Source: a virus
Virus record (IMG/VR): IMGVR_UViG_3300042549_002554
Location: 1 to 24,294 of that record
DNA length: 24,294 nucleotides
Strand: one strand, 5' to 3'
Position numbers and translations under genes: made by a program. The notes under the pieces were generated by a model that did not search any database, had not been told where the DNA came from, and was given only the letters and a program-made list of their open reading frames with translations. This document shows, one piece after another, positions 1 to 23,357 of the stretch. Positions within the stretch are counted from its first letter, which is position 1, and every line of letters begins with the position of its first letter.

Positions 1-181
1 GATCCATCATTAAAGGATCGCCACCATTGACGATAATTGTATTAGTTTCTGGGAATCTTTTTAAGAAATCAAAAATGTGCTGATGATCTAACTCTGCAGT
101 TTTATCTTCAGTAATATGAGTACTGGAACAGAATGTGCATTTAAAGTTGCACTTCTCTGTTGGTTTAATTATAAGATCCAT
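1..181 (-). CDS. Radical SAM enzyme, N-terminal fragment (cut by left window edge)
   Basis: Reading the minus strand from an ATG at 181 gives 60 codons open to the window edge. The fragment carries a canonical radical SAM cluster motif CNFKCTFC (Cys 11, 15, 18), which would bind a [4Fe-4S] cluster and S-adenosylmethionine, followed by NGGDPLM near residue 53, the GGE/GGD motif that contacts the SAM amino group. The first residues, MDLIIKPTEKC, match the usual position of the motif after strand beta-1, so the start is well placed. Its ATG lies inside the last codons of the B12-type radical SAM gene (17-nt overlap), implying translational coupling. The C-terminal half, including any SPASM domain, lies outside the window, so the exact subfamily and substrate cannot be given. 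It is the fourth radical SAM gene of this cluster. Confidence 0.88.
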   Translation of the reverse strand, partial: MDLIIKPTEKCNFKCTFCSSTHITEDKTAELDHQHIFDFLKRFPETNTIIVNGGDPLMMD

Positions 182-1748
182 TATATTGTTCTTTATTCAA
201 ATAAAATTTAGTGACCCAATCTTCTATTAAATGACCATCATATAATAAAAAATCTTGATCACTTCTTTGTCCCTTAGACATTTTATCTATTTCAGAGTAA
301 ATATATTTAAACCAATTTTCGTTTTTAAAAGAATTATAAATTGTTTTAAGTTCTACACTTGGAATTTGATCTGGTGTTAATGTTGGTCCAAGAACTCTCT
401 GGGCGTAATTCATGAACATCATTTCTTTCCAATCTTCTCTTGAGAAACTATATGTTTCAACAACAACTTCTTGTGGTGATTTGTATTTTGTTAACACACA
501 ATTAGAAAAATGAGTTATGTCATTATCATCATTTTCAGTGATACCAATATTAACTGTTTTTATTTTATGTAATGCTTTATAAAATGGAGTTTCAATTTCA
601 GTTCCAGATAAAACTGTGAGTGGTCCTCGTGACCATTGCCAACCTTTAGTGTATAAAGTAAAATTCATTTCTTGATAAAAATCATCAAGAGTGTATCCAG
701 GTAATCCCATAATAATTTCTATTTGAGCATGAACACCATATTTTTCATTAAACTTTTTACCAAGAGACAAATTTTCTTCTATGGTGACATCTGTTCGTTT
801 TACATTTTTTAATGCTTCAGAACTATATGATTGGACTGATAAAGAATAGTTTTTCATTAGTCCATGTTTAAATGCAATATCTAAAAACTTCTCTCTTTTC
901 TCGATTTTAGTCTTAGCCACCCCATATACAAGAACATCTTTGGGTGAACCGTAAAGTTCTTTATTGTCAGCAATTCTTTGCATAATATCTGGATCACGAT
1001 TTAGTATTCCAAAGTTAGCATCAATAAAATCGATATTATCAAACCCCAGTACACAAACTAAATCAATTTCTTTAAAAACAATATCAGTTGGTTTTTGACT
1101 AATTTTTGTGCCAATACCGCCACCCCACTCACAGTATGTGCATGCATATGGACACCCTCGTGTCGTTTCCATATTAATAACTGAAGTTATACCTAAACTC
1201 TTTGCTGTTCCTGCCACATTAATTAAATACGGCATGTTATATTCATATGTAGAAAATTCTGGAAATTTGTAAATTTGTTTTCCTAATGATGCTGTATGTC
1301 CACGCATTATAATGCCATGGACTTTTTCAGGTTCTATAACTTTACCGTGTTCTTGAATTTGTTTTAAAAATTCTTTAAAAAAATACTCTCCAGTTGCCAG
1401 TGGGCTACAAGAGTAATCTAAAAATGGAAATTCATTATAAGAATCTTCAGTAAAATATGGTTGTTGTGGACCACCTCGAACGATAATTATGTTTGGGTTT
1501 CTTTTCTTAACTCTTTCGGCAACATCCAAACATAATTTACCATTCCATATATACGAACCTAGAAGTAATATTTTTGGATCTGATTCAATTATATGATCAA
1601 CTACATCGTCTGCGTTATGATATAATCTCCAATTAATAATTGGTTCTAACCATTCATACTCAGGAAACACAGCACTAAAATTCATCCATCCAGTGTCTGC
1701 AACTAGTGTTCTAGTTCCAATTGGTGGATTAAGCCAGTATATTCGCAT
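165..1748 (-). CDS. Radical SAM protein with probable cobalamin (B12)-binding N-terminal domain
   Basis: This is a protein of about 527 residues. Residues 30-130 look like a B12-binding Rossmann domain: a hydrophobic strand ILLLGSY, a helix, then IIIVRGGPQ, and later LATGEYFF. They are followed by a radical SAM domain with motif CPYACTYC (Cys 200, 204, 207, counted from a GTG one codon upstream) and later SLSVQSYS and IIMGLPGYT, typical of B12-type radical SAM enzymes. Family members do methylations at unactivated carbons, ring contractions and cyclisations; the reaction here is unknown. No DxHxxG cobalamin-ligand motif is evident, as in many class B members. I prefer the ATG at 1748; a GTG at 1751 is possible, with a GGA element just upstream. 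The gene overlaps the preceding gene by about 20 nt and the next radical SAM gene by 17 nt, so it belongs to one coupled operon. Confidence 0.85.
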   Translation of the reverse strand: MRIYWLNPPIGTRTLVADTGWMNFSAVFPEYEWLEPIINWRLYHNADDVVDHIIESDPKILLLGSYIWNGKLCLDVAERVKKRNPNIIIVRGGPQQPYFTEDSYNEFPFLDYSCSPLATGEYFFKEFLKQIQEHGKVIEPEKVHGIIMRGHTASLGKQIYKFPEFSTYEYNMPYLINVAGTAKSLGITSVINMETTRGCPYACTYCEWGGGIGTKISQKPTDIVFKEIDLVCVLGFDNIDFIDANFGILNRDPDIMQRIADNKELYGSPKDVLVYGVAKTKIEKREKFLDIAFKHGLMKNYSLSVQSYSSEALKNVKRTDVTIEENLSLGKKFNEKYGVHAQIEIIMGLPGYTLDDFYQEMNFTLYTKGWQWSRGPLTVLSGTEIETPFYKALHKIKTVNIGITENDDNDITHFSNCVLTKYKSPQEVVVETYSFSREDWKEMMFMNYAQRVLGPTLTPDQIPSVELKTIYNSFKNENWFKYIYSEIDKMSKGQRSDQDFLLYDGHLIEDWVTKFYLNKEQYNGSYN

Positions 1749-2280
1749 CACGGATCCAATAATGTTGTTGGCGCATAAAACCCAAAGGTTTTAATATTTG
1801 TCTTTTATATGTCAAGGTTGGAATTCTTTCTTGATTTATACTCAAGTGCAACCATTCTAGATAAGATCCAGAAGGACATATAATTTTTCGATCTCCAAAC
1901 ATAAGTATAATATCTTTCCAAATTTGTTTAGTGATAGCTGTGGTTTTATTTCTACCTAGTCTGTATACATATCCAAAGTATTTTACTGTGCCAAGAATAA
2001 CTTCATCTTCATAAGGATAAACAATAGCCATGCCAATTTCAATTCTATTCGGATCTTTACAATTTACATTCTGAGGTTCGTTTTTACAACGAAATGCATT
2101 TTCAGCGATAGTGGGATAGTCTTTTGCGTCTGCGTGCCATATTAAAATATATCCTTGTTCAGGACATATCCTAGCAACATGGGGATGTTGATTCGGAATA
2201 TTATCTAGAAAAATATCAACATTAAACGGTATTACATTCGGATTTAACTGATTGCATTTTGCGCTGTACTCGTACATCAT
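1729..2280 (-). CDS. Hypothetical protein of about 183 aa in the radical SAM cluster
   Basis: I do not recognise this protein. The open frame extends upstream to a GTG at 2394, but that start would place 173 nt inside the preceding radical SAM gene. The tandem ATGs at 2280 and 2277 (protein MMYEYSAKC...) reduce the overlap to 59 nt and are more likely, although no good Shine-Dalgarno sequence precedes them. Visible features are a segment GYILIWHADAKDY, an alternating hydrophobic stretch GMAIVYPYEDEVILGTVKYF, and a C-terminus YKRQILKPLGFMRQQHYW. The strand-rich middle and the 'LKPLGF' end faintly recall N-acetyltransferase-like folds, but no acetyl-CoA loop is clear, so no function is assigned. 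Its position between two radical SAM genes, overlapping both, suggests it takes part in the same pathway. Confidence 0.65.
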   Translation of the reverse strand: MMYEYSAKCNQLNPNVIPFNVDIFLDNIPNQHPHVARICPEQGYILIWHADAKDYPTIAENAFRCKNEPQNVNCKDPNRIEIGMAIVYPYEDEVILGTVKYFGYVYRLGRNKTTAITKQIWKDIILMFGDRKIICPSGSYLEWLHLSINQERIPTLTYKRQILKPLGFMRQQHYWIRDANILA

Positions 2281-3289
2281 CGATGTATCGGTGCGTAAGT
2301 TTGTAGACACACTCATCCAGTTCTTCCCTAAATTTATAATCATGCTGCATAAAACAGCTAAAACTGCATCTGTCGAGATACTCGCACGAGACACAATCGT
2401 ATTTCTCTAAGAATTTATTCTCAATCTCAGAGTTGTCCATCTTTTGAATATTGGAAGAATAAAATTTAATGACTTTGTCATCTTGTACTAGGTTACCACA
2501 CTGGCACATCGTTCCATCTGCAAGAACTAATTTACTAGATCTACAAGATGCATAGTTTGAATCGTTTTCAATCCAATCTGCTATGGGATGAACTTTAGGA
2601 TACTTATCTATTAGGTGTTGAAATACATCTCTTAATTGAGCATCAGTTGGTGCTTGGATATCAGCAGACTCATCTGGCATGTAATAATCAAAGTAAATGT
2701 AATAACCATCATTATATAACTTTTTAAAATAATTATCTTTATCTTGTAAAATGTAATTTATGTTTGGAGAGTTAAGAAGCATAGAGATGCAAGTAATTCG
2801 TTTACCAAAATACTCCATGTTCTTTTTAAATGACATGAAATCATTTACATTAAACCTACCTCTTGGGTCATATGATGTGACTAGGTTAATATCTAGATTG
2901 ATTTGTGAAGAATACGATATTAACTCTTCAATTAAATCAACTCTGTTTGTGACAAGATTAGTGACCCAATTAACCTTAACTTTTTTATTATATTTTTCAC
3001 CAAGATGTTTAATACCCAGAGATAAAGATTTATATTGATTTAATAAATCTTCATTAAATATTTCAGGTGCGAAAACTTCACCACCCATTGCATTAAATAC
3101 AACTGAGTGGCTAGTTTCTGTTTGTAGGAATTTTTCTATTGGATCAAGTTTATCGGTAATGGTATCTAAACCAACTCGATTTTCATGGTCTTGCCAGCAG
3201 AAAGAACAACGGAGATTACAATACTCAAATAGATGTAAAGTATATTCTTGCTCTGGATCTCGTTTTCTTTCAAGTATCAATTCTCTCAT
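2222..3289 (-). CDS. Radical SAM/SPASM-type enzyme (355 aa)
   Basis: The N-terminus carries the radical SAM motif CNLRCSFC (Cys 24, 28, 31) and a GGEVF motif at about residue 69. The C-terminal third is Cys-rich: CRSS at 249, CQC at 262-264, then CVSCEYLDRCSFSC at 299-312 (spacing CX2CX5CX3C) and a further Cys at 327. That spacing is the hallmark of SPASM auxiliary-cluster domains, found in enzymes that modify peptides or proteins (anaerobic sulfatase maturases, sactipeptide, ranthipeptide and mycofactocin enzymes). The protein probably holds one SAM-binding and one or two auxiliary [4Fe-4S] clusters. The ATG at 3289 lies 14 nt after the preceding stop. It is clearly distinct from the other SPASM enzyme at 5697-6737, sharing only the architecture, which suggests a second modification or a second substrate. 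Confidence 0.9.
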   Translation of the reverse strand: MRELILERKRDPEQEYTLHLFEYCNLRCSFCWQDHENRVGLDTITDKLDPIEKFLQTETSHSVVFNAMGGEVFAPEIFNEDLLNQYKSLSLGIKHLGEKYNKKVKVNWVTNLVTNRVDLIEELISYSSQINLDINLVTSYDPRGRFNVNDFMSFKKNMEYFGKRITCISMLLNSPNINYILQDKDNYFKKLYNDGYYIYFDYYMPDESADIQAPTDAQLRDVFQHLIDKYPKVHPIADWIENDSNYASCRSSKLVLADGTMCQCGNLVQDDKVIKFYSSNIQKMDNSEIENKFLEKYDCVSCEYLDRCSFSCFMQHDYKFREELDECVYKLTHRYIDDVRVQRKMQSVKSECNTV

Positions 3290-3303
3290 AATATACTTTA
3301 ATT

Positions 3304-4422
3304 TTACACTGTATGAATAATAAATTTTTCTAGATAATCAACATCACCTTCATGATATTTTTTCAACACATGCAGAAATAAAGGGAAGTTTATATTTTCA
3401 AAATCGAAACGAGGAATCAAACATGTGTCAAATGGAGACGCAGAAATAGTATCAATAATATCATCAAATTCTTCTTGCGTCATTTCATCACGACATGCAA
3501 TTTCTAACCAGCGGAATCCTTCAAATACTGTAGTGTTAGTTTGCATACCTTCGAACTGACTAAAAATTTTAAGAATAGTATCTTTTAATCCATCTATTTT
3601 TTCTTGTGGTAAACCAGAAAGATTACAAATACCATAAACACCACTGGACACTGTGGTTGTTTCTTTCCAAATTTGTGTATCTGCGTAATATTTTAATGCT
3701 TCAATATTCTTTAACGGATTGCCAGTTATATCAACAGTTCCAGAAAATCCTAATGCTTCTTGAAAGCGATGATTATTAATATTTAATAAAACCATCTGAC
3801 GATTATCAGTGAATTGTTCTTGGAAAAATCTTCTTAAGAAACGATGTGCAGTAGTTAATAATGGCTCAACATAGTCTCTGTTGCCAGCCAAATAATTTGC
3901 CAATAAAAATTCATAAGAGATACTAACTCCCATTAATGCAGGAGAAATCTGCCCTTGAATTTTATTGTCCCAAGCATACTGCCAATCTGTAGTTGTAAAC
4001 TCTTCAAAAATAGAATCAATAGTAACTGCGTTTTGAGAAGAGAGTTGTGTATTTGAAACACATCGTTCACGATAGATTGTTAAATTGGCGATATCTTTAA
4101 AGGTGTCAAAATCTAAAGTAGGCATCATTATGTTCATCCAGGTCGCAATAAATTTTAAATAGTTCTCTTTATCACAATAGATTATAATCTTTTTACTGTT
4201 TTGATTTCCGTGACCTTTTAATTGTAAGATTAAATCCTCGAAAACAATCTCATCGTTTAATTCTTCTAATGTTTTTGCGTATGCAAGTAATCGACCATAA
4301 GTATATTTTTCAAATTCAGTAGACATTTGAATGCCAAACTGATTAGAAATGACCACACGATCTATATCAACATTAATTTTATGATCAAACTCAAGATAAA
4401 CTTTGTTAAACAGATGTAGCAT
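3304..4422 (-). CDS. Unknown 372-aa protein of the maturation cluster
   Basis: I recognise no family. The protein is soluble-looking, with no signal peptide or membrane segment. It has scattered single Cys residues (for example IIIYCDKEN near 80, RERCVSN near 120, GICNLSG near 265) without a metal-site spacing. A motif VDITGNPLKNIEALKYYAD at about 230-248 resembles a segment of the adjacent 238-aa protein (LTGSPLEDSYALLKDYM), hinting that the two share a domain or a binding function. The start at 4422 is supported by AAGGA seven bases upstream; the gene overlaps its predecessor by 17 nt. Lying between the putative substrate and the second SPASM enzyme, it could be a substrate-binding or assembly partner, or another tailoring enzyme. 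This is inference from position only. Confidence 0.72.
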   Translation of the reverse strand: MLHLFNKVYLEFDHKINVDIDRVVISNQFGIQMSTEFEKYTYGRLLAYAKTLEELNDEIVFEDLILQLKGHGNQNSKKIIIYCDKENYLKFIATWMNIMMPTLDFDTFKDIANLTIYRERCVSNTQLSSQNAVTIDSIFEEFTTTDWQYAWDNKIQGQISPALMGVSISYEFLLANYLAGNRDYVEPLLTTAHRFLRRFFQEQFTDNRQMVLLNINNHRFQEALGFSGTVDITGNPLKNIEALKYYADTQIWKETTTVSSGVYGICNLSGLPQEKIDGLKDTILKIFSQFEGMQTNTTVFEGFRWLEIACRDEMTQEEFDDIIDTISASPFDTCLIPRFDFENINFPLFLHVLKKYHEGDVDYLEKFIIHTV

Positions 4423-5122
4423 TTTGCATTCCTTGAATAGTTTCTTGCTTGGCTTTAATATAATCTTGAGAATTTAATCCATTGCCAATTGCAAATGTGA
4501 GTAAAAACATTGGGTTATTTTTATTAGCCCAGAACGAGTATAAATTCTTACCTTTAAACATATACTCATTAAAATACTTTGTGTAAAATTTAAGACTAGA
4601 TTTATCTACTTTACTATAAAGTGTATAAAAGTCTTCGTGTTTTAATAGACTAATAAAATTAACACCTGTAATATCATCGGTGTCATTCTTTGGAAAAGAC
4701 TCTGCAAAGTTTTTAGTTTCTTCGCTGTTAATGATATACATATTGTATAATGTTAAGCTATCAAGTTTATTAATCCATGTATTAATTAGATCTTTGTTTT
4801 CTTCAATAAACTCTTTATGTAAAGAAATATCAGAAAGACCTTTAGCTTCTCTTAGCACAGACATAACAAAATATTCTAATGATTGTATATTCACTAACAT
4901 AGGACTATTCATATAATCTTTCAGCAGTGCATAAGAATCTTCTAAAGGAGATCCTGTTAAATCAATATCTACAGGTAAATCTAAATTGCTTAGATATGTT
5001 ATTAATTTACTACCCTTTAGTTTACTATCAGCATAGTTAATATCATAGAATGATGTTTTGTCGGTAAAATATTTTTTAAGATCTTCAATAGCAATTGGTG
5101 CTGCCGTTTTAATAATGTTCAT
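4406..5122 (-). CDS. Unknown 238-aa protein directly after the Cys-His tail protein
   Basis: I recognise no family. The protein is acidic to neutral and probably mostly helical, lacks Cys entirely, and has no signal or membrane segment. Residues 51-70 (VDIDLTGSPLEDSYALLKDY) resemble residues 229-247 of the 372-aa neighbour. Its start codon overlaps the stop of the 191-aa protein as TAATG, and its ribosome-binding site (GAGGAAG, 8 nt spacing) is formed by the codons for the final Arg-Gly-Arg-Arg of that protein, so translation of the two should be coupled. Equal stoichiometry or direct interaction with the 191-aa protein is therefore plausible, for instance as a chaperone or partner for maturation. 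Nothing in the sequence proves this. Confidence 0.72.
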   Translation of the reverse strand: MNIIKTAAPIAIEDLKKYFTDKTSFYDINYADSKLKGSKLITYLSNLDLPVDIDLTGSPLEDSYALLKDYMNSPMLVNIQSLEYFVMSVLREAKGLSDISLHKEFIEENKDLINTWINKLDSLTLYNMYIINSEETKNFAESFPKNDTDDITGVNFISLLKHEDFYTLYSKVDKSSLKFYTKYFNEYMFKGKNLYSFWANKNNPMFLLTFAIGNGLNSQDYIKAKQETIQGMQNATSV

Positions 5123-5697
5123 TATCTTCTTCCTCTAGATCCATGACACGATGAATGGCAAGAAGCGTGGCAAACATTTACCTGAATAGAAAGATCAGTT
5201 GTTTTCTTTAAGTCCCATTCTGCCTTTATTCTATTAAGAAGATTTTCAAGTTCTGATGCAGTAATTGTATTGTCAGTAGTAACAGGAGATGCAGTTACTG
5301 CACCTAATGCTTGAAGATAAGTAGTGTTCATATATGCTTTTTTAGTTTCGTCAAAAACTGTTCCTGCAGTTCCACGAGATCCAGTATTACCTCCGCTACC
5401 ATCTACAAATAAAATTGCTCTAAGATTTCTAATATTTGTATAATTATAGGTTTCCGCTAAAACAACATCGTAAATATCAGATGCATCAATAAGATTACCT
5501 GCAGTTCCTACATTAGTTCCAGTTATTCCGATTGTTCTTCCTGCAAGAGTTCCAGCTAATTTAGCTGCATCAAATTCAGCAAATGGCAAAGTATCAGCTG
5601 CCCAAACAATAGTTGAGTTTGCTACATCAACTACAAACTCTTTATAGTAGTCAACTAGGTTTTGTGGGGTGATAGTTGCATTAGTATCGATAGGCAT
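5122..5697 (-). CDS. 191-aa protein with C-terminal CHxS-repeat tail; putative radical SAM substrate / tail-tip protein
   Basis: Residues 1-175 contain no Cys and no His. The last 16 residues hold three of each, in a regular array C-H-A-S, C-H-S-S, C-H-G-S (from Cys 176) ending RGRR. The body has beta-rich, Gly/Thr/Asn-rich stretches (about 45-140) like phage fiber or adhesin proteins, then a helical segment (about 147-165) leading into the tail. The start overlaps the SPASM radical SAM stop as TAATG and has a strong Shine-Dalgarno AAGGA six bases upstream; the end overlaps the next gene as TAATG. Enzyme-substrate adjacency and a Cys/His/Ser-rich C-terminus suggest a ribosomally made, post-translationally modified C-terminus, with the large N-terminal part as leader or structural domain. 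The tail could instead be an unmodified metal site. No homologue is claimed. Confidence 0.85.
   Translation of the reverse strand: MPIDTNATITPQNLVDYYKEFVVDVANSTIVWAADTLPFAEFDAAKLAGTLAGRTIGITGTNVGTAGNLIDASDIYDVVLAETYNYTNIRNLRAILFVDGSGGNTGSRGTAGTVFDETKKAYMNTTYLQALGAVTASPVTTDNTITASELENLLNRIKAEWDLKKTTDLSIQVNVCHASCHSSCHGSRGRR
5125..5172 (-). other. Putative modified core: three CHxS units plus RGRR
   Basis: These 16 codons form the C-terminal tail of the 191-aa protein. Cys recur at 176, 180 and 184, each followed by His and, two residues later, Ser. The four-residue period and the absence of Cys and His elsewhere make this the obvious target for the neighbouring radical SAM and oxygenase-type enzymes. 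The Cys spacing is CX3C, so it is not a haem-c CXXCH motif. Confidence 0.6.
5131..5135 (-). promoter_or_regulatory. Ribosome-binding site for the 238-aa gene inside the RGRR codons
   Basis: On the minus strand the purine run AGAGGAAGAAGA (5136-5125) encodes the terminal Arg-Gly-Arg-Arg and also places GAGGA 8 nt before the ATG at 5122. It links translation of the downstream gene to the end of the Cys-His tail. Confidence 0.6.
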
Positions 5698-6737
5698 TAC
5701 ATTTCCTTAATTGTCCAAACTTTACGATTCCCTTTTAGGTATCCCATTAAACTTTTCGGTGCTCCGCAGACATCTCCTTGCCACGCTAACTGGTGGCAGT
5801 CTCCTCCGCAGACATCAAAAACCTCACAAGAATAGCAGTTAGGGTTTCTGGATCTTTCGCACGATATATTATTTAGTCGTACTGGGTTTGTGAGTAAATC
5901 TTCTAATGAGTCGGTTATGTGTCCAAAATTCTGTTCTGGAGCGGAATTGGGGCATCCAGCGATAGTTCCATCAGCGTTTATCGTGAATAACTTCTCTTCA
6001 CAATCTCTACAAAAGGTTCCACCACGAGTAAAGTTAGTTTCAAACTTAGAGTAAATGTCTTCCATAAACTCGTTTTCAAACCAATCTCTGGCATTGTTTT
6101 CTTGTATCTGATGATGCATTTTTAAGAACCATGCATCTTGATCTAGATTGGACGGGAAGATATCAGGATATAGGTTTGCATTACCATTGTGAGTCAATCG
6201 TTCTAAACTCATTTCCTGAACACCGAGATCTTTAACCCATTCTAATAGTTCTATGGGTTCAATGTTTATCGTTGCTGATGTCACAGAAATAAACAGCTTA
6301 ACCTTTGTTCCGTTTTTAACTAAGGTCTCAACATTCTTTCTCCATAGGTCATATTGTTTTGGGCTAGAAAACCTAATATTAGGATCCCAGCTAGTACCAA
6401 TTCTATTACTCAGTTGATTTTCTATAAAGGAGAAATGTTCTGGGTACATCTTAAAAGTAAGATTAGAAGTAGCACCCCAAGTCGCCATGGGAACATAACT
6501 TTTACATTCTTCATATACTCTAATCATTTCATCTACAGGAACCAAGAATGGTTCACCACCATGAAACTCACAATGAAGAGTATCGTTATCTTTAACTTTT
6601 TTGCTGAATCGCTGAACCCAATCGATAACTAATTCTGGTTTCCAGAAAATCTTAGCACCATTTGATCCATTTGTAAAACAATGCTTGCAATTAAGATTAC
6701 AAGTTTCAGTTGTTTTAAGGTAGAACATCCAATTCAT
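5697..6737 (-). CDS. Radical SAM/SPASM enzyme, likely peptide maturase (346 aa)
   Basis: From the ATG at 6737 the protein begins MNWMFYLKTTETC and carries the radical SAM motif CNLNCKHC (Cys 13, 17, 20), then HGGEP at 59-63. The C-terminus is a SPASM domain: CRDC at 243-246, GCPNS at 261-265, CERS at 293, then CYSCEVFDVCGGDC at 301-314 (CX2CX5CX3C) and Cys 324. This is the architecture of anaerobic sulfatase-maturase-like and RiPP-maturase enzymes, which use a 5'-deoxyadenosyl radical to oxidise or cross-link residues of a peptide. An upstream TTG at 6773 keeps the frame open, but AAAAGG six bases before 6737 fixes the later start. The gene overlaps the JmjC-like gene by 23 nt and the 191-aa gene by 1 nt (TAATG), which makes that protein the best substrate candidate. 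Confidence 0.92.
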   Translation of the reverse strand: MNWMFYLKTTETCNLNCKHCFTNGSNGAKIFWKPELVIDWVQRFSKKVKDNDTLHCEFHGGEPFLVPVDEMIRVYEECKSYVPMATWGATSNLTFKMYPEHFSFIENQLSNRIGTSWDPNIRFSSPKQYDLWRKNVETLVKNGTKVKLFISVTSATINIEPIELLEWVKDLGVQEMSLERLTHNGNANLYPDIFPSNLDQDAWFLKMHHQIQENNARDWFENEFMEDIYSKFETNFTRGGTFCRDCEEKLFTINADGTIAGCPNSAPEQNFGHITDSLEDLLTNPVRLNNISCERSRNPNCYSCEVFDVCGGDCHQLAWQGDVCGAPKSLMGYLKGNRKVWTIKEM

Positions 6738-7212
6738 AATATGCCTTTTCACACATAAACTTTTCAAGACCAAATGACAACATTAAAGACGAATGACCAT
6801 TTAATGCACGATGTGGAGTATTAGCAGGAATAAAAAGACTCTGACCAACCTTCAGCTCATTATACTTATTATATACCTCTATTGTTTTTATACCTTCAGT
6901 GACATAAAGAAATACATCGTCTGGGTCTGTATGCATATCAAAAGAAACAGAATTTGGATATGCTTTAAAAGCATGGCAAGTTACTGGACCATTATGGTTT
7001 TTAGTTTCTTTTAGATAATTACAATAGTTGTAAATATCAGAGTTATACTTTTCCATGTTCTGAATTTTTATCGTACAGCCTTCATAAAATAAAAATTGGG
7101 AGACCGATTCTATTTGAACCTGTCTCCCATGGGAGTCAATAACACTTACTACTTTTTCTTCTAGAGCATAATTAGATAAAGAAAACTTTTCAAACTCATC
7201 ATATGATAACAT
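6715..7212 (-). CDS. JmjC/cupin-like protein, probable Fe(II)/2-oxoglutarate-type oxygenase
   Basis: The 165-aa protein has the cupin core of JmjC-type (cupin_4/ROXA-like) oxygenases. FDMHTDPDDVFLYVTEG at about 91-107 supplies the HxD pair (His 94, Asp 96); KVGQSLFIPANTPHRAL at about 121-137 supplies the distal His 134; LSFGLE ends the barrel. His-x-Asp...His is the Fe(II)-binding triad. An N-terminal GCTIKIQNMEK also fits the family. Bacterial relatives hydroxylate Arg (YcfD/RoxA on a ribosomal protein) and eukaryotic ones hydroxylate His (MINA53, NO66). The next substrate-like protein carries both His and Arg in its tail, so it could be the target, but this is inference. A non-catalytic or sugar-type cupin remains possible. 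ATG 7212 directly follows the tail fiber stop (TAAATG), and the 3' end overlaps the SPASM gene. Confidence 0.78.
   Translation of the reverse strand: MLSYDEFEKFSLSNYALEEKVVSVIDSHGRQVQIESVSQFLFYEGCTIKIQNMEKYNSDIYNYCNYLKETKNHNGPVTCHAFKAYPNSVSFDMHTDPDDVFLYVTEGIKTIEVYNKYNELKVGQSLFIPANTPHRALNGHSSLMLSFGLEKFMCEKAYYELDVLP
6744..6749 (-). promoter_or_regulatory. Ribosome-binding site deciding the SPASM enzyme start at 6737
   Basis: The minus strand reads AAAAGG six bases before the ATG at 6737. The upstream TTG at 6773 has no comparable element, so the shorter 346-aa product is preferred. Confidence 0.6.
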
Positions 7213-8433
7213 TTACAATATTACGCACTCAACAAGTTTAACAGAATGTTCTTCGTTAGTTTCTAAAGAGATGGCAAAACTATTATTTGTATCACCGTAG
7301 ATACCTTTACCATCTTGATTGCAAATTAATGGTTGTCCTTTACGGATTGGTCCAATAACTTTAACTGGAACACGACCACGAAGTGCAATTGCTTGACCAT
7401 CTAATTCATCGTTCATGATAAATGCTGGGTTTGTGGAAACAACACCAAGCACTCTTTGACCAGTAGTATAGGAGGCAGTACCTTCAGCATCACCTGCAGA
7501 AGCAACAACAATAACTGTTCCTGGTTCGTATTCTTGATCAGTTGTATATTTTTCTGCTAAGTCAGCGTATCGAGCAGAAGTACTAGTGCCGTAAATAACA
7601 GCGAATCTATTTGCAGATTGTCCGATATCACCAGAACCATTAGTTCCAGTCTTAATAATGTAATTTACGGATGGATTTGGTGAACCAGTAATCGTTGGAT
7701 TGCCAGAAACTCCATCACCATTAGTTACAGTAATATTAGTTCCAGCTGCAATACTTCTTGTTAGTGCAGTTCCTGCAGAATCTTTAACAAAGAAACCATG
7801 AGTAGTTACAGCTGCTAATGCTGTTAAGTTATTAGAGAATGGTTGAATATCAGAACCGATAACTAAACCTAAGTTAGTTCTTGCTTGGTTCACAGATGTC
7901 GCTGCAGTACCACCAGAAGCAATTGCCAAGGCACTAGTTAGAGTTACTGATCCACCAGTAATAGTAACATTATTTGCAGCTTGCGTAGCCATAGTTCCTA
8001 AACCGAGCGCAGTTCTAGCTGCAGTATCAGTTGTAGCACCAGTACCACCATTGTTAATCGCAACAACACCATCCACATTGGTTGCATTACCTGTCACAGT
8101 TCCAGTTACATTACCAGTAACATTACCAGTAACAGCACCAACTAGATTGGCAGTAATAATATTTGCAGAAAAATTACCAGAAGTATCTCTTGAAACTACG
8201 GTTGCAGTAGAAGATACATGAGAATTAGATGCATTTAAATTATCCAATAAATCTGCATTTATCCCAGATCCTGGACCATCAACAGTTAATAGTTTGGTTA
8301 AGACATCAGATGCAGTATATGTAGTTGTTGCTAGTTTTGTTCCAACCTCAGTGTTTAGGTTATCAAAGTTAGCGTCTGCCTCTGCAATCGTTAGCGGACT
8401 GCCTTTTACACTGCGAAGTACGATTGTTGCCAT
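7213..8433 (-). CDS. Tail fiber protein with peptidase G2-like C-terminal domain
   Basis: This is a 406-aa fiber-type protein. The N-terminus (to about 90) is a short adaptor with coiled character; GNVTGNVTGTVTGN at 103-116 and NNGGTGATTDTAARTALGLG at 127-146, echoed at 173-190 (SGGTAATSVNQARTNLGL), are shaft repeats typical of phage fibers. From about 289 (YADLAEKYTTDQEYEPGTV) through GVVSTNPAFIMN and LRGRVPVKVIGPIRKGQPL the C-terminus matches the domain seen at the end of many marine phage fibers and related to peptidase G2 autoproteases or trimerisation modules. The protein probably forms a trimer attached to the baseplate and contacts the host surface. It overlaps the coiled-coil gene by 1 nt and abuts the JmjC-like gene, linking receptor-binding structures to the modification cluster. 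Confidence 0.88.
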   Translation of the reverse strand: MATIVLRSVKGSPLTIAEADANFDNLNTEVGTKLATTTYTASDVLTKLLTVDGPGSGINADLLDNLNASNSHVSSTATVVSRDTSGNFSANIITANLVGAVTGNVTGNVTGTVTGNATNVDGVVAINNGGTGATTDTAARTALGLGTMATQAANNVTITGGSVTLTSALAIASGGTAATSVNQARTNLGLVIGSDIQPFSNNLTALAAVTTHGFFVKDSAGTALTRSIAAGTNITVTNGDGVSGNPTITGSPNPSVNYIIKTGTNGSGDIGQSANRFAVIYGTSTSARYADLAEKYTTDQEYEPGTVIVVASAGDAEGTASYTTGQRVLGVVSTNPAFIMNDELDGQAIALRGRVPVKVIGPIRKGQPLICNQDGKGIYGDTNNSFAISLETNEEHSVKLVECVIL

Positions 8434-8663: not shown

Positions 8664-11600
8664 TATACGCAGGCAAGCACACGAAGATCTTTAATTCTTG
8701 GCACTTGAGAACTATTAGAAGATTTCATAACAATCTTAATTTGCACAGCATCAAACGCAACCAAATCATCCAGTGAATAAGACGCATCATAGAATTGATC
8801 TTCTTGATTAGATGAAGTATGAATAGGAGAATCTATTGTCATTTGTGAATATGAAGCATTTCCCAATGGTACATTAGAACCAACAATATTAGTTTTGTAC
8901 CAAACTTCAATAGAAGCATCGGCTGGAAGATTAGCTGCAAATTTAACTCTTAGATAATTAGAGTGCGCTGCTAGATTAACTCTCTTAGTCACATATTTAC
9001 TATATGTAGAACTTTCTGAAGGAGCATTTTCAGCTGCAAATCTTTCTCTTTGAGTTATTGTTACATTACCAGTAACTGCTGTTGGAGCAGAGTCGAATGT
9101 AATAGAAGTGCCATCTGCAGCAACAGCTGTAATTAACTTAGTGCTTGTTCCAGAACTTGCGCCAGCGATAGTTAGATACTTACCAACAGTGGCAGTTTTA
9201 AATGCGTCTTGTGCAGGCGCAATATACGCTGTATATGTTAAACCAGTTGGAGTACCAGCAGTAGTAACAATAGCAACATCAGCAGTAGTTTTTAAAGTAA
9301 ACCCAGTCACAGAAGAACCGCTACCAGTAATGGCAGAAACTTGATATTGTGTACCAGTTGCATAACCAGTAATAGTGCCAGTACCACCTAGTGTACCAGT
9401 GATCGTAATTCTACTTCCAACCACCAATGTAGTTGCAGTACAAGTAAACTGACCAGCAGTACCAGAAATATCAACACCAGATAAAGTCGCTGGCGAAGCA
9501 ACTGCACTAGCTGCAGTTACAATAGTACTACCACTAATGCTTATTGTAGGACTGTTACTTATTAATACATGGTAATCTAAAGAAGCCACATTGAGATTAG
9601 TCTCTGATGGATTATTAACTTTATTTCCAATAGCAATCAAACTTGTTCTATGAGTATCAATGATTGGTGATAATGCATCATTTGAACTGCTCATGACAAT
9701 GTTAAATTTAACTGATTTATCACCACTTAATCCAAATACAGCATCAGCTTCATTTTGCTCAGAAGCAATCATCTTCGGTATACCGAAATAGTTAGTCTCA
9801 TTTGCTAACACACCACTATAAACAGTATCTTGAACATAAGCTACTTGTGAAGTTGAATCAACGGATTTACCAGTAACACCTTGAATTCCAAAACTAATTG
9901 GAGTTTCAGAGAAAGATTGTAGTTGAACTAATGGTTGAACTGCATCATACTGAATGTGTCTTGTTGCCTTAACTACAGAACCACCACTATATCCAGATGC
10001 CGTTGCATTTGAACCAAGTGTAATACAATAGCTGTCTAAATCAACATCACTAATTGTATGAGTTGTATTAAATCCTGCAAAAGCAATACCATTGACATCG
10101 GCAGAAACACCACTAATAGTTACATAAGAACCAGATGGAATACCATGATTGTCTTGCCAGACACGAACTTTAGCAACTCCTGCTCGAGTTTCGAATGGAT
10201 TAACACCTAATGTAACTTTTGATAAAGCATCATTTGTATACTCAATATTAGAATTAACACCAGTTTCGAACTGACAACGATAAATTGTAAACTTCAAATC
10301 TTGAGTTTGATCTGCTGTCCAAGTAGAAGCATTTTGAGATTTAAACAGTGAACCAAGGTATGGTTGCTCAGAAATAGTACGAGCAGTTCCAGGCATTTGA
10401 TCACCGACTTGAGAAATCCAAACTTTATAATTGTTTGAATCTGACGCTAACACGATAGCGTACTCAGTATTTTCCTGAACATAAACTGGGCTAGGGAATG
10501 TGAATGTAGTTGGTGTATTATAAGAAGGTATTTCTACTCCATCTAATAATACTGTTGTCTCGGAAAGGTTTATAGATTCTGGTTTTAATGTAACACGAGA
10601 GAACGGTAAAACTCGTTTTCCTGGATATCCATTAACTACCTCACGAATTTCTAATGTAGCTGGGATTGCAGTATCTTTAGATGCAAAGAATACATCAACT
10701 TTAGATAAGAAGCAACCACCCTTTTGTTCGATTAAGAATGTTTGCGCAAGAGGATCCCACCAACCAGTATCAGCAACAACTCGGTCAGAAGTTTGAGTAA
10801 TAACTTGGTTATCCTCAAGTGGTTCTTGCGCTAGTTCTGCATTACGAACAGCATGTACTGTTCTTTGTTTAGTTTCAAGAATACCCTCAGCACGATAATT
10901 TGCTCTTGCACGAGAAGTAAACGCTCCAGTTGCAGTGGTTACATCTACCAGTTTTAATTCACGACTACCACAACGGAATCTTAATTGTTCATTATTTGGA
11001 ATATTGAATAGTAAATTTAACTCGCCATTGAAATTAGAGATTAAAGTGCTACCAAGTGCCTTAGTTGTAATTGTTCCAACTGTTCCAGATGCAGCAGTAG
11101 GATAACCTAATGGGTTTGATGCAGTAATTGTTTCGCTAGCAGAGAATGTACCCTGAATATTAACTACGAATAATGCATATGTGCCAGCGTCTGGGTTGTA
11201 TTCTTTACCAACAACAACAGCAGTTGCAGCAGAAGTTCCACCAGTAATAATATCACCACGATTTAAACAAACCTGTGAGTCGCCATCAACTCTTCGTGCA
11301 GCTGCAGTAGCATTGGAACCAACATTAGTATCAGTATCAAATTTATTATGTGTTATTAATTTTGCTGCAGCAGTTGCTCCAGTAGGAGTATATGCAATCT
11401 TAGAAGCTGGTGTGCAATAAGCAGAAATATCAATACCATCAAAGAATGGATAGAAACGAGTGCTTGGTTTTAATTTTTGAATTTGAACAAGAATGTTTCT
11501 TGAACGAATATAAGGAATAGCTGCAGTTGATAGAACACGATCGCCAACAACTTGTCTGTCAATTTTCTCAACTAGAGTAGTTTTGATACCTGTTCTGTTT

Positions 11601-23054: not shown

Positions 23055-23357
23055 TTATTCTATGAAAGAGTTATTAGAACCTTGTGCTATTGCATCACCA
23101 CATTGGATACTATCTCCAATTCTAGCTGCTTTTTTACCTTCAATGTAAGTCTTACTCGCTCCACTACTGGGGATACGAATATCAGAATTGTGTGTAGTTA
23201 TTCCACAAGAATGAGCTGCAAATTTACAATTAGGATCTACAACCCCAGCTAATTTTCCATTAAAATAGGTTTTAGCCACTGGTGTAGTTATCAGTGCAGT
23301 AGGTGCAAAACACCCATGCCCTGTGCTTTGATCATTCATTCTGGCTACAGCAGGCAT
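23055..23357 (-). CDS. PAAR-domain spike tip protein (T4 gp5.4-like)
   Basis: The 100-aa protein matches the PAAR fold over its full length: MPAVARMNDQSTGHGC, HSCGITTHNSDIRIPSSG, then KTYIEGKKAARIGDSIQCGD. His 14, His 49, His 56 and Cys 86 are good candidates for the tip metal (Zn or Fe) ligands, the usual three His and one Cys. PAAR proteins cap the gp5-type spike and sharpen it for membrane piercing. Synthesis is coupled to the preceding 155-aa gene by TAATG. The position just before gp25 and after a peptidase gene places it in the central spike module. Confidence 0.93.
   Translation of the reverse strand: MPAVARMNDQSTGHGCFAPTALITTPVAKTYFNGKLAGVVDPNCKFAAHSCGITTHNSDIRIPSSGASKTYIEGKKAARIGDSIQCGDAIAQGSNNSFIE

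Follow-up and report, generated by a model that had tools for sequence, protein, structure and literature searches.

A radical SAM gene cluster linked to a near-invariant CHxS tail beside phage tail fiber genes: a candidate system for modifying a fiber-tip protein

We find that a small protein with an almost invariant Cys-His-rich C-terminal tail, here called S, is encoded together with stacks of radical S-adenosylmethionine (SAM) enzymes beside tail fiber genes of phages, and that the same combination occurs in Bdellovibrionota. The window in which the system was seen is a 24,294-base IMG/VR virus fragment (IMGVR_UViG_3300042549_002554), analyzed as one stretch. It derives from the tail portion of a T4-like phage, with positions 23,357 to 7,213 taken up by genes for baseplate wedge proteins, a PAAR protein, other structural proteins, and fibers. 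The tail of S consists of 16 residues, namely three CHx[S/N/A] repeats followed by an RxRR end, with CHASCHSSCHGSRGRR as the window version. The role of this tail as a substrate of the linked radical SAM enzymes is close to secure, and its sequence neighborhood indicates that these enzymes very probably remodel it chemically. It is likely, in our judgment, that the radical SAM enzymes, with cupin and B12 steps, modify the tail of S as a contact protein at the fiber tip.

The linkage between tail and enzymes was measured from three anchors: B, the SPASM radical SAM gene directly before S; the DNA pattern of the tail, which is blind to the enzymes; and D, an accessory gene after S. The anchors were selected independently, and some contigs are common to the sets. 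Among the B-anchored loci (62 from IMG/VR plus four phage genomes, n = 66), S with a full tail lay no more than 1.5 kilobases (kb) downstream of B in 59, and 2.2 kb downstream in L057. L069 carried a two-repeat version of the tail, CHSNCHINRSRR. The other five loci were truncated by contig ends, so that a tail was found in 61 of 61 testable loci. The tail pattern yielded 115 distinct cases, 61 of which had at least 3 kb of downstream sequence; radical SAM genes were present in 60 of these, D in 56, and the accessory genes E or E2 in 54. Each of the 78 testable D-anchored loci encoded a tail of exactly three CHxx repeats capped by R[GS]RR, and radical SAM genes were present in 80 of 80 loci. 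These two sets also bear on the initial annotation, which had named homologs of S commonly lacking radical SAM neighbors as the observation that would speak against a modification system; such neighbors were nearly always there. Furthermore, B occurs in seven of 50,697 annotated phage records, and D in the same seven.

This near-perfect reciprocal linkage would be left unexplained if the tail were unmodified or a simple metal-binding (Zn, Fe, or Cu) motif, with the radical SAM enzymes performing auxiliary metabolic chemistry on small molecules or nucleotides. We consider that explanation quite improbable. Three CH pairs could bind metal, and the 12 radical SAM genes of a T4-like marine phage genome were earlier interpreted as Fe-S metabolism (PMC5332604). 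B and F, a second radical SAM enzyme of the cluster, also match viperin models weakly, but these matches span just ~70 residues of the core that radical SAM enzymes share, and a viperin (defense) reading was rejected.

Across members the tail is nearly identical (CHxSCHxSCHxSRGRR), and the rest of S can scarcely be aligned between distant members. Mean identity among 157 distinct S proteins was 83% in the tail, 19% in the preceding 16 residues, and 16% in the next 16 upstream, figures that are partly tail-selected and are tested fairly by the B- and D-anchored sets. Cysteines are confined to the tail in 114 of the 157. Synonymous codons of the invariant tail residues vary freely; because codons are mixed while residues are fixed, selection acts on the protein. 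A chance origin of the pattern is excluded, since it carries ~45 bits yet matched at least 120 stretches in IMG/VR, where by estimate far fewer than one match is expected. L069 has a natural variant with two CH repeats, VCHSNCHINRSRR, at about 9027-9539, directly after B.

An AlphaFold2 model of S built from 49 aligned sequences has a mean predicted local distance difference test score (pLDDT) of 84.2, with 99 residues at 90 or above and ~53 in the tail, which is predicted to be disordered and therefore accessible. The fold of S has no counterpart in the PDB. A structure search of a viral library (E ≤ 0.001) gave five matches: a 178-residue protein, a 173-residue phage protein, a 296-residue Atu_ph07 protein, and two ctijX18 phage proteins. 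The first of these is, we infer from its equal length, S of Pseudomonas phage DT01, and the length of the Atu_ph07 match equals that of gp170. In the 50,697 phage records, tblastn with S, the tail peptide, or a second S family found nothing, because S is too diverged and low-complexity masking probably hides the tail. Scanning IMG/VR for sequences similar to S was likewise without success, and the tail DNA pattern was used there for that reason. Given that structures matched where sequence searches failed, distant S proteins share a fold.

The predicted domain argues against S being the precursor of a ribosomally synthesized and post-translationally modified peptide (RiPP), with a tail that is modified, cleaved, and released as a free toxin, antimicrobial, or signal. 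The enzyme types and the short Cys-rich C-terminal core fit a RiPP layout, and S does combine a conserved candidate core with linked enzymes. However, the part before the core is modeled as a folded domain of ~175 residues, not a short leader; the core is nearly invariant across very different phages and bacteria, unlike that of typical weapons; and the gene travels with fiber genes. For leader removal and release, no protease or transporter family was found in the window cluster, nor any protease, exporter, or immunity gene among the matched cluster families, although D, E, and G, which have no known family, could hide one. A released peptide is thus unlikely.

In the window, the last fiber gene, T, is followed on the minus strand by A, B, S, D, E, F, G, H, and the start of I:

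7213..8433, minus strand: T, tail fiber (406 amino acids) with a fiber terminal domain, directly upstream of the cluster (phrog_22593, 1.5e-17; phrog_19602 tail fiber, 1.4e-15)
6715..7212, minus strand: A, cupin/JmjC-like putative Fe-dependent oxygenase (165 amino acids; Cupin_2, 5.7e-8; JmjC_2, 2e-5)
5697..6773, minus strand: B, SPASM radical SAM enzyme, gene directly before S (SPASM TIGR04085, 5.9e-9; PapB, 1.4e-15; phrog_1802, 5e-71)
5122..5697, minus strand: S, presumed substrate (191 amino acids), predicted folded domain at about residues 1-175 and predicted disordered tail at residues 176-191 (AlphaFold2, conserved tail)
5125..5172, minus strand: S tail, presumed modified core (invariant C, H, and R columns in the alignment)
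4406..5122, minus strand: D, accessory protein (238 amino acids), in both gene orders (phrog_20767, 3e-70)
3304..4422, minus strand: E, accessory protein (372 amino acids) with an MLHLFNKVYL start (E or E2 frequent in tail-selected loci, as above)
2222..3289, minus strand: F, second radical SAM enzyme with a Cys-rich C-terminus (phrog_1802, 2e-49; CxxxCxxC and six more conserved Cys)
1729..2394, minus strand: G, hypothetical protein (family in 43 loci)
165..1751, minus strand: H, cobalamin-dependent radical SAM enzyme, C-methyltransferase-like (NF033712 KedN5, 1.4e-38; TokK, 3.8e-34; CysS, 1.9e-24)
1..181, minus strand: I, start of a further radical SAM enzyme, truncated by the contig end (Radical_SAM, 30.1 bits)

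The gene list of the initial annotation was right gene for gene, with every member present on the minus strand in the order claimed. It had named a cupin/JmjC-like gene (A), a first SPASM radical SAM gene (B), a 191-residue protein with a periodic Cys-His-Ser C-terminus (S, which ends in VNVCHASCHSSCHGSRGRR), a B12-type radical SAM gene (H), and a fourth radical SAM gene of which the window contains the start (I). Its description of these genes as nearly all overlapping also agrees with the coordinates, adjacent genes abutting or overlapping apart from a 14-base gap between E and F. For F, described as a second SPASM radical SAM gene, the radical SAM assignment and the conserved auxiliary cysteines stand, but the SPASM match is weak (0.0027). 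The T4-like setting holds for the window itself, whereas the system as a whole also occurs in phiKZ-like jumbo phages and in bacteria.

The CxxxCxxC motif that marks the superfamily was confirmed within the radical SAM domain of B, F, H, and I. B retains this motif and its auxiliary cysteines in 129-132 of 132 relatives, passes the SPASM TIGR04085 cut-off (36.3 bits versus 27), and by sequence belongs to the peptide-modifying SPASM group; its true start is more probably ATG 6737 than TTG 6773. F retains CxxxCxxC and six additional cysteines in 76-77 of 77 relatives, and the metal triad of A (H94-x-D96...H134) is kept in 83 of 83. The KedN5, TokK, and CysS matches span most of the length of H, to which TokK and CysS are the nearest solved structures. 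Full-length relatives of I, judged by eye, occur at L191 1011-2042 and L221 17510-18517. A further radical SAM family, R, has a CxxxCxGC motif, with C-terminal cysteines in 81 of 83 members. An apparent absence of radical SAM genes from 20 loci was rejected, as the profiles were too narrow for the R family and a recheck found either enzymes or a contig end. A near-empty cluster in L106 was rejected as well: open reading frames had been called on the wrong strand, and tblastn gave A, B, D, F, and R there. L106 is a 222,888-base single-genome record with the order A-B-S-D-R-F.

Two gene orders recur, T-A-B-S-D-E-F-(G or H)-further radical SAM genes and T-S-S-R-E2-D-R-R-R-(F). Loci with at least 7 kb downstream contain one to six radical SAM genes by four profiles, mostly three or four. 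S and the following gene overlap or lie no more than 20 bases apart in 146 of 155 cases. Of 138 loci, 86 have a T-type fiber, by profile, as the closest upstream neighbor, and 25 more are truncated by the locus end. The second S family (L071-L190; for example, L184 6445-5682 and L146 4689-5452) consists of tandem pairs of ~127 residues directly after the fiber, with R-type radical SAM genes. The two S copies of this second order differ in sequence yet have a common tail, which speaks against S being a scaffold whose tail supports the assembly of a small molecule or cofactor, as in peptide-scaffold pathways, with fiber linkage incidental. An invariant C-terminal end and many tailoring enzymes would suit a scaffold, but profile searches of the cluster revealed neither a dedicated protease nor an amino-acid ligase, and fiber linkage recurs in phages and bacteria; we regard a scaffold as highly unlikely.

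A link to the virion comes from Agrobacterium phage Atu_ph07. Proteomics of purified particles placed most of its virion proteins in three gene clusters, one of which is CDS 170-215 (PMC6102473). In the phage record, gp170 is an S protein, and the published cluster starts exactly there. The numbering was cross-checked with gp181 (baseplate), gp198 (portal), and gp204 (prohead core), the last two both listed as head genes. This boundary suggests that S itself was among the proteins detected in Atu_ph07 virions.

The tail is also found in bacterial chromosomes. Among 84,980 species genomes, the strict pattern matched 13 stretches in eleven genomes, all metagenome-assembled or binned by title, and six of the eleven belong to one phylum, that of Bdellovibrionaceae. 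A looser pattern matched 10 of 369 genomes of that phylum, leaving nine after removal of a simple repeat (G147). These cases are assemblies from metagenomes, and their predatory habit is presumed from the group. Several clusters sit among ordinary chromosomal genes (rpsT, cbb3 oxidase, and fatty-acid genes, identified by eye except for the cytochromes). Peptidase_S74, a tail-fiber chaperone domain, is rare in these genomes, with one to five copies in each. Six of the nine nevertheless have an S74 gene on the S contig, 2.8-16.4 kb away from S, and the S contigs of the remaining three are no longer than 11.6 kb. The chance of this proximity is below 1e-6 by a rough estimate that assumes ~3% per genome. 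Several of these S74 proteins begin with a pilin-like N_methyl segment. CHxS/radical SAM clusters near such pilin-like-S74 fusions were seen on the Bdellovibrionota contigs L221, L223, L224, L203, L227, L229, and L312. A partner of ~200 residues encoded with S74 genes was considered as a fiber terminal domain and is not relied on (hmmsearch, 14 bits; hhalign, 4.6%).

S74-bearing fibers belong to the mosaic adhesive trimer (MAT) family, which is implicated in Bdellovibrio prey recognition (PMC10769870). The fiber-type S74 genes near Bdellovibrionota CHxS clusters recall that family, but no radical SAM partner is described in PMC10769870, whose text lacks the words 'radical' and 'pilin'. Because of the S74 proximity in bacteria and the fiber adjacency in phages, the cluster accompanies fiber-type genes in both phages and Bdellovibrionota, invaders of bacteria that are unrelated to each other. 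The proposal of the initial annotation that the phage modifies one of its own virion proteins is supported by radical SAM and fiber linkage, the Atu_ph07 cluster boundary, and this S74 proximity.

We propose that S is an adhesin-type fiber-tip protein in which a variable folded domain carries the constant 16-residue tail. S would be made in the infected cell, and its tail modified before assembly by the co-encoded radical SAM enzymes. B, encoded just before S, is the best candidate for acting first, and F or R, the cupin A, and H may add further changes, which in some phages would include oxygenase (A) and B12-methyltransferase-like (H) chemistry. D and E may present the tail or help S to join the fiber. 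The likeliest chemistry would be cross-linking of tail cysteines and/or histidines, for example as thioethers of the kind made by related SPASM enzymes. The product would be a rigid, chemically altered tail displayed at the fiber end, where it could engage the bacterial surface in a chemically demanding way. Because the domain is variable and the tail constant, the pattern suggests that the domain adapts to fiber or host and that the tail does one constant job. More tentatively, and with somewhat less than even confidence, we suggest an unrecognized class of chemically matured contact devices in diverse tailed phages and Bdellovibrionota, with several radical SAM enzymes remodeling the constant tail of a variable fiber-tip protein and that tail engaging the target envelope.

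Several points weigh against modification of a fiber-tip protein. The modification is a prediction from gene content, and the Atu_ph07 statement is a cluster boundary, not a per-protein listing of S. No solved adhesin in the PDB has a fold like that of S. Fiber linkage could also reflect a host-recognition island where such genes gather.

T-even gp38-type adhesins form the distal fiber tip and are small, variable, and encoded right after the fiber gene. S is likewise small, variable, and beside a fiber gene, but its fold matches nothing in the PDB, and we know of no chemical maturation of gp38. Among peptide-modifying systems, B matches the ranthipeptide enzyme model rSAM_PapB but falls far under the NF047865 cut-off (57.4 bits versus 340). 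It also matches rSAM_Cxxx_rpt (4.3e-8), and the S tail is literally three CXXX units, but B is under the TIGR04115 cut-off (33.0 bits versus 350). Unlike in both systems, the substrate here would be a folded protein beside a phage fiber, with many enzymes on one constant tail. The His-Xaa-Ser system (HxsA/B/C/D) likewise combines H-x-S repeats with multiple radical SAM enzymes, and B and I match HxsB (5.8e-7) and HxsC (6e-7) weakly; however, 28.6 bits compares with cut-offs of 370 and 267.9, and the tail of S repeats CHxS and closes with RxRR. When 49 S proteins were compared with NCBIfam precursor models, none matched at E 0.01. H resembles the cobalamin radical SAM methyltransferases KedN5, TokK, and CysS, but it is below the KedN5 cut-off (132.6 versus 700), and its substrate is presumably a protein tail. 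By these comparisons, the system is a member of none of the named families tested (PapB, CXXX, and His-Xaa-Ser). Its enzymes come from known superfamilies, and by analogy its logic resembles RiPP maturation.

Related genes have been noted before. In pelagimyophages, radical SAM cassettes are variable parts of the host recognition cluster, with no substrate named (PMC7029224), and cupin and radical SAM proteins of phage S13, a relative of FLC6, are listed without a role (PMC11898562). The peptide-modification statement in PMC7824862 refers to other enzymes. The searched tail strings did not occur in the literature covered, nor did we find there a description of a CHxS-tail system; subscription papers and preprints lay outside that search.

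If the fiber tip does carry a modified tail, the system would merit the label categorically new. To our knowledge, a phage host-contact protein altered covalently by radical chemistry would be without precedent in phage biology. It would also explain the radical SAM stacks, some with Fe-S carriers, of many marine and jumbo phages that were formerly filed as auxiliary metabolism. Receptor-binding studies would have a constant modified tag across unrelated phages and predatory bacteria, and peptide chemists gain many related enzyme sets on one fixed 16-residue substrate.

Seeds from D and D2 collect a single profile family in 162 loci, which serves both gene orders. The predicted structure of D (pLDDT 91) has no PDB match and no known fold, E matched no family in profile searches, and neither protein has recognizable enzyme motifs. 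Profile comparison could not unite E with E2 (7% probability). Several different E-like starts (M-[FYL]-H-L-F-x-K-x-Y) per cluster were seen by eye in L222, L223, L228, and L312, which suggests an expanded E family there. As listed, G begins 173 bases before F ends (window 2394-2222); because the conserved core begins well after that position, the true start is probably near 2280, well inside the listed open reading frame. In Burkholderia phage FLC6, two genes annotated as dihydrofolate reductase (DHFR) lie in the cluster (L007 15319-16532) beside radical SAM and 2-oxoglutarate (2OG)-Fe oxygenase genes, and the first was confirmed (DHFR_1, 2e-47).

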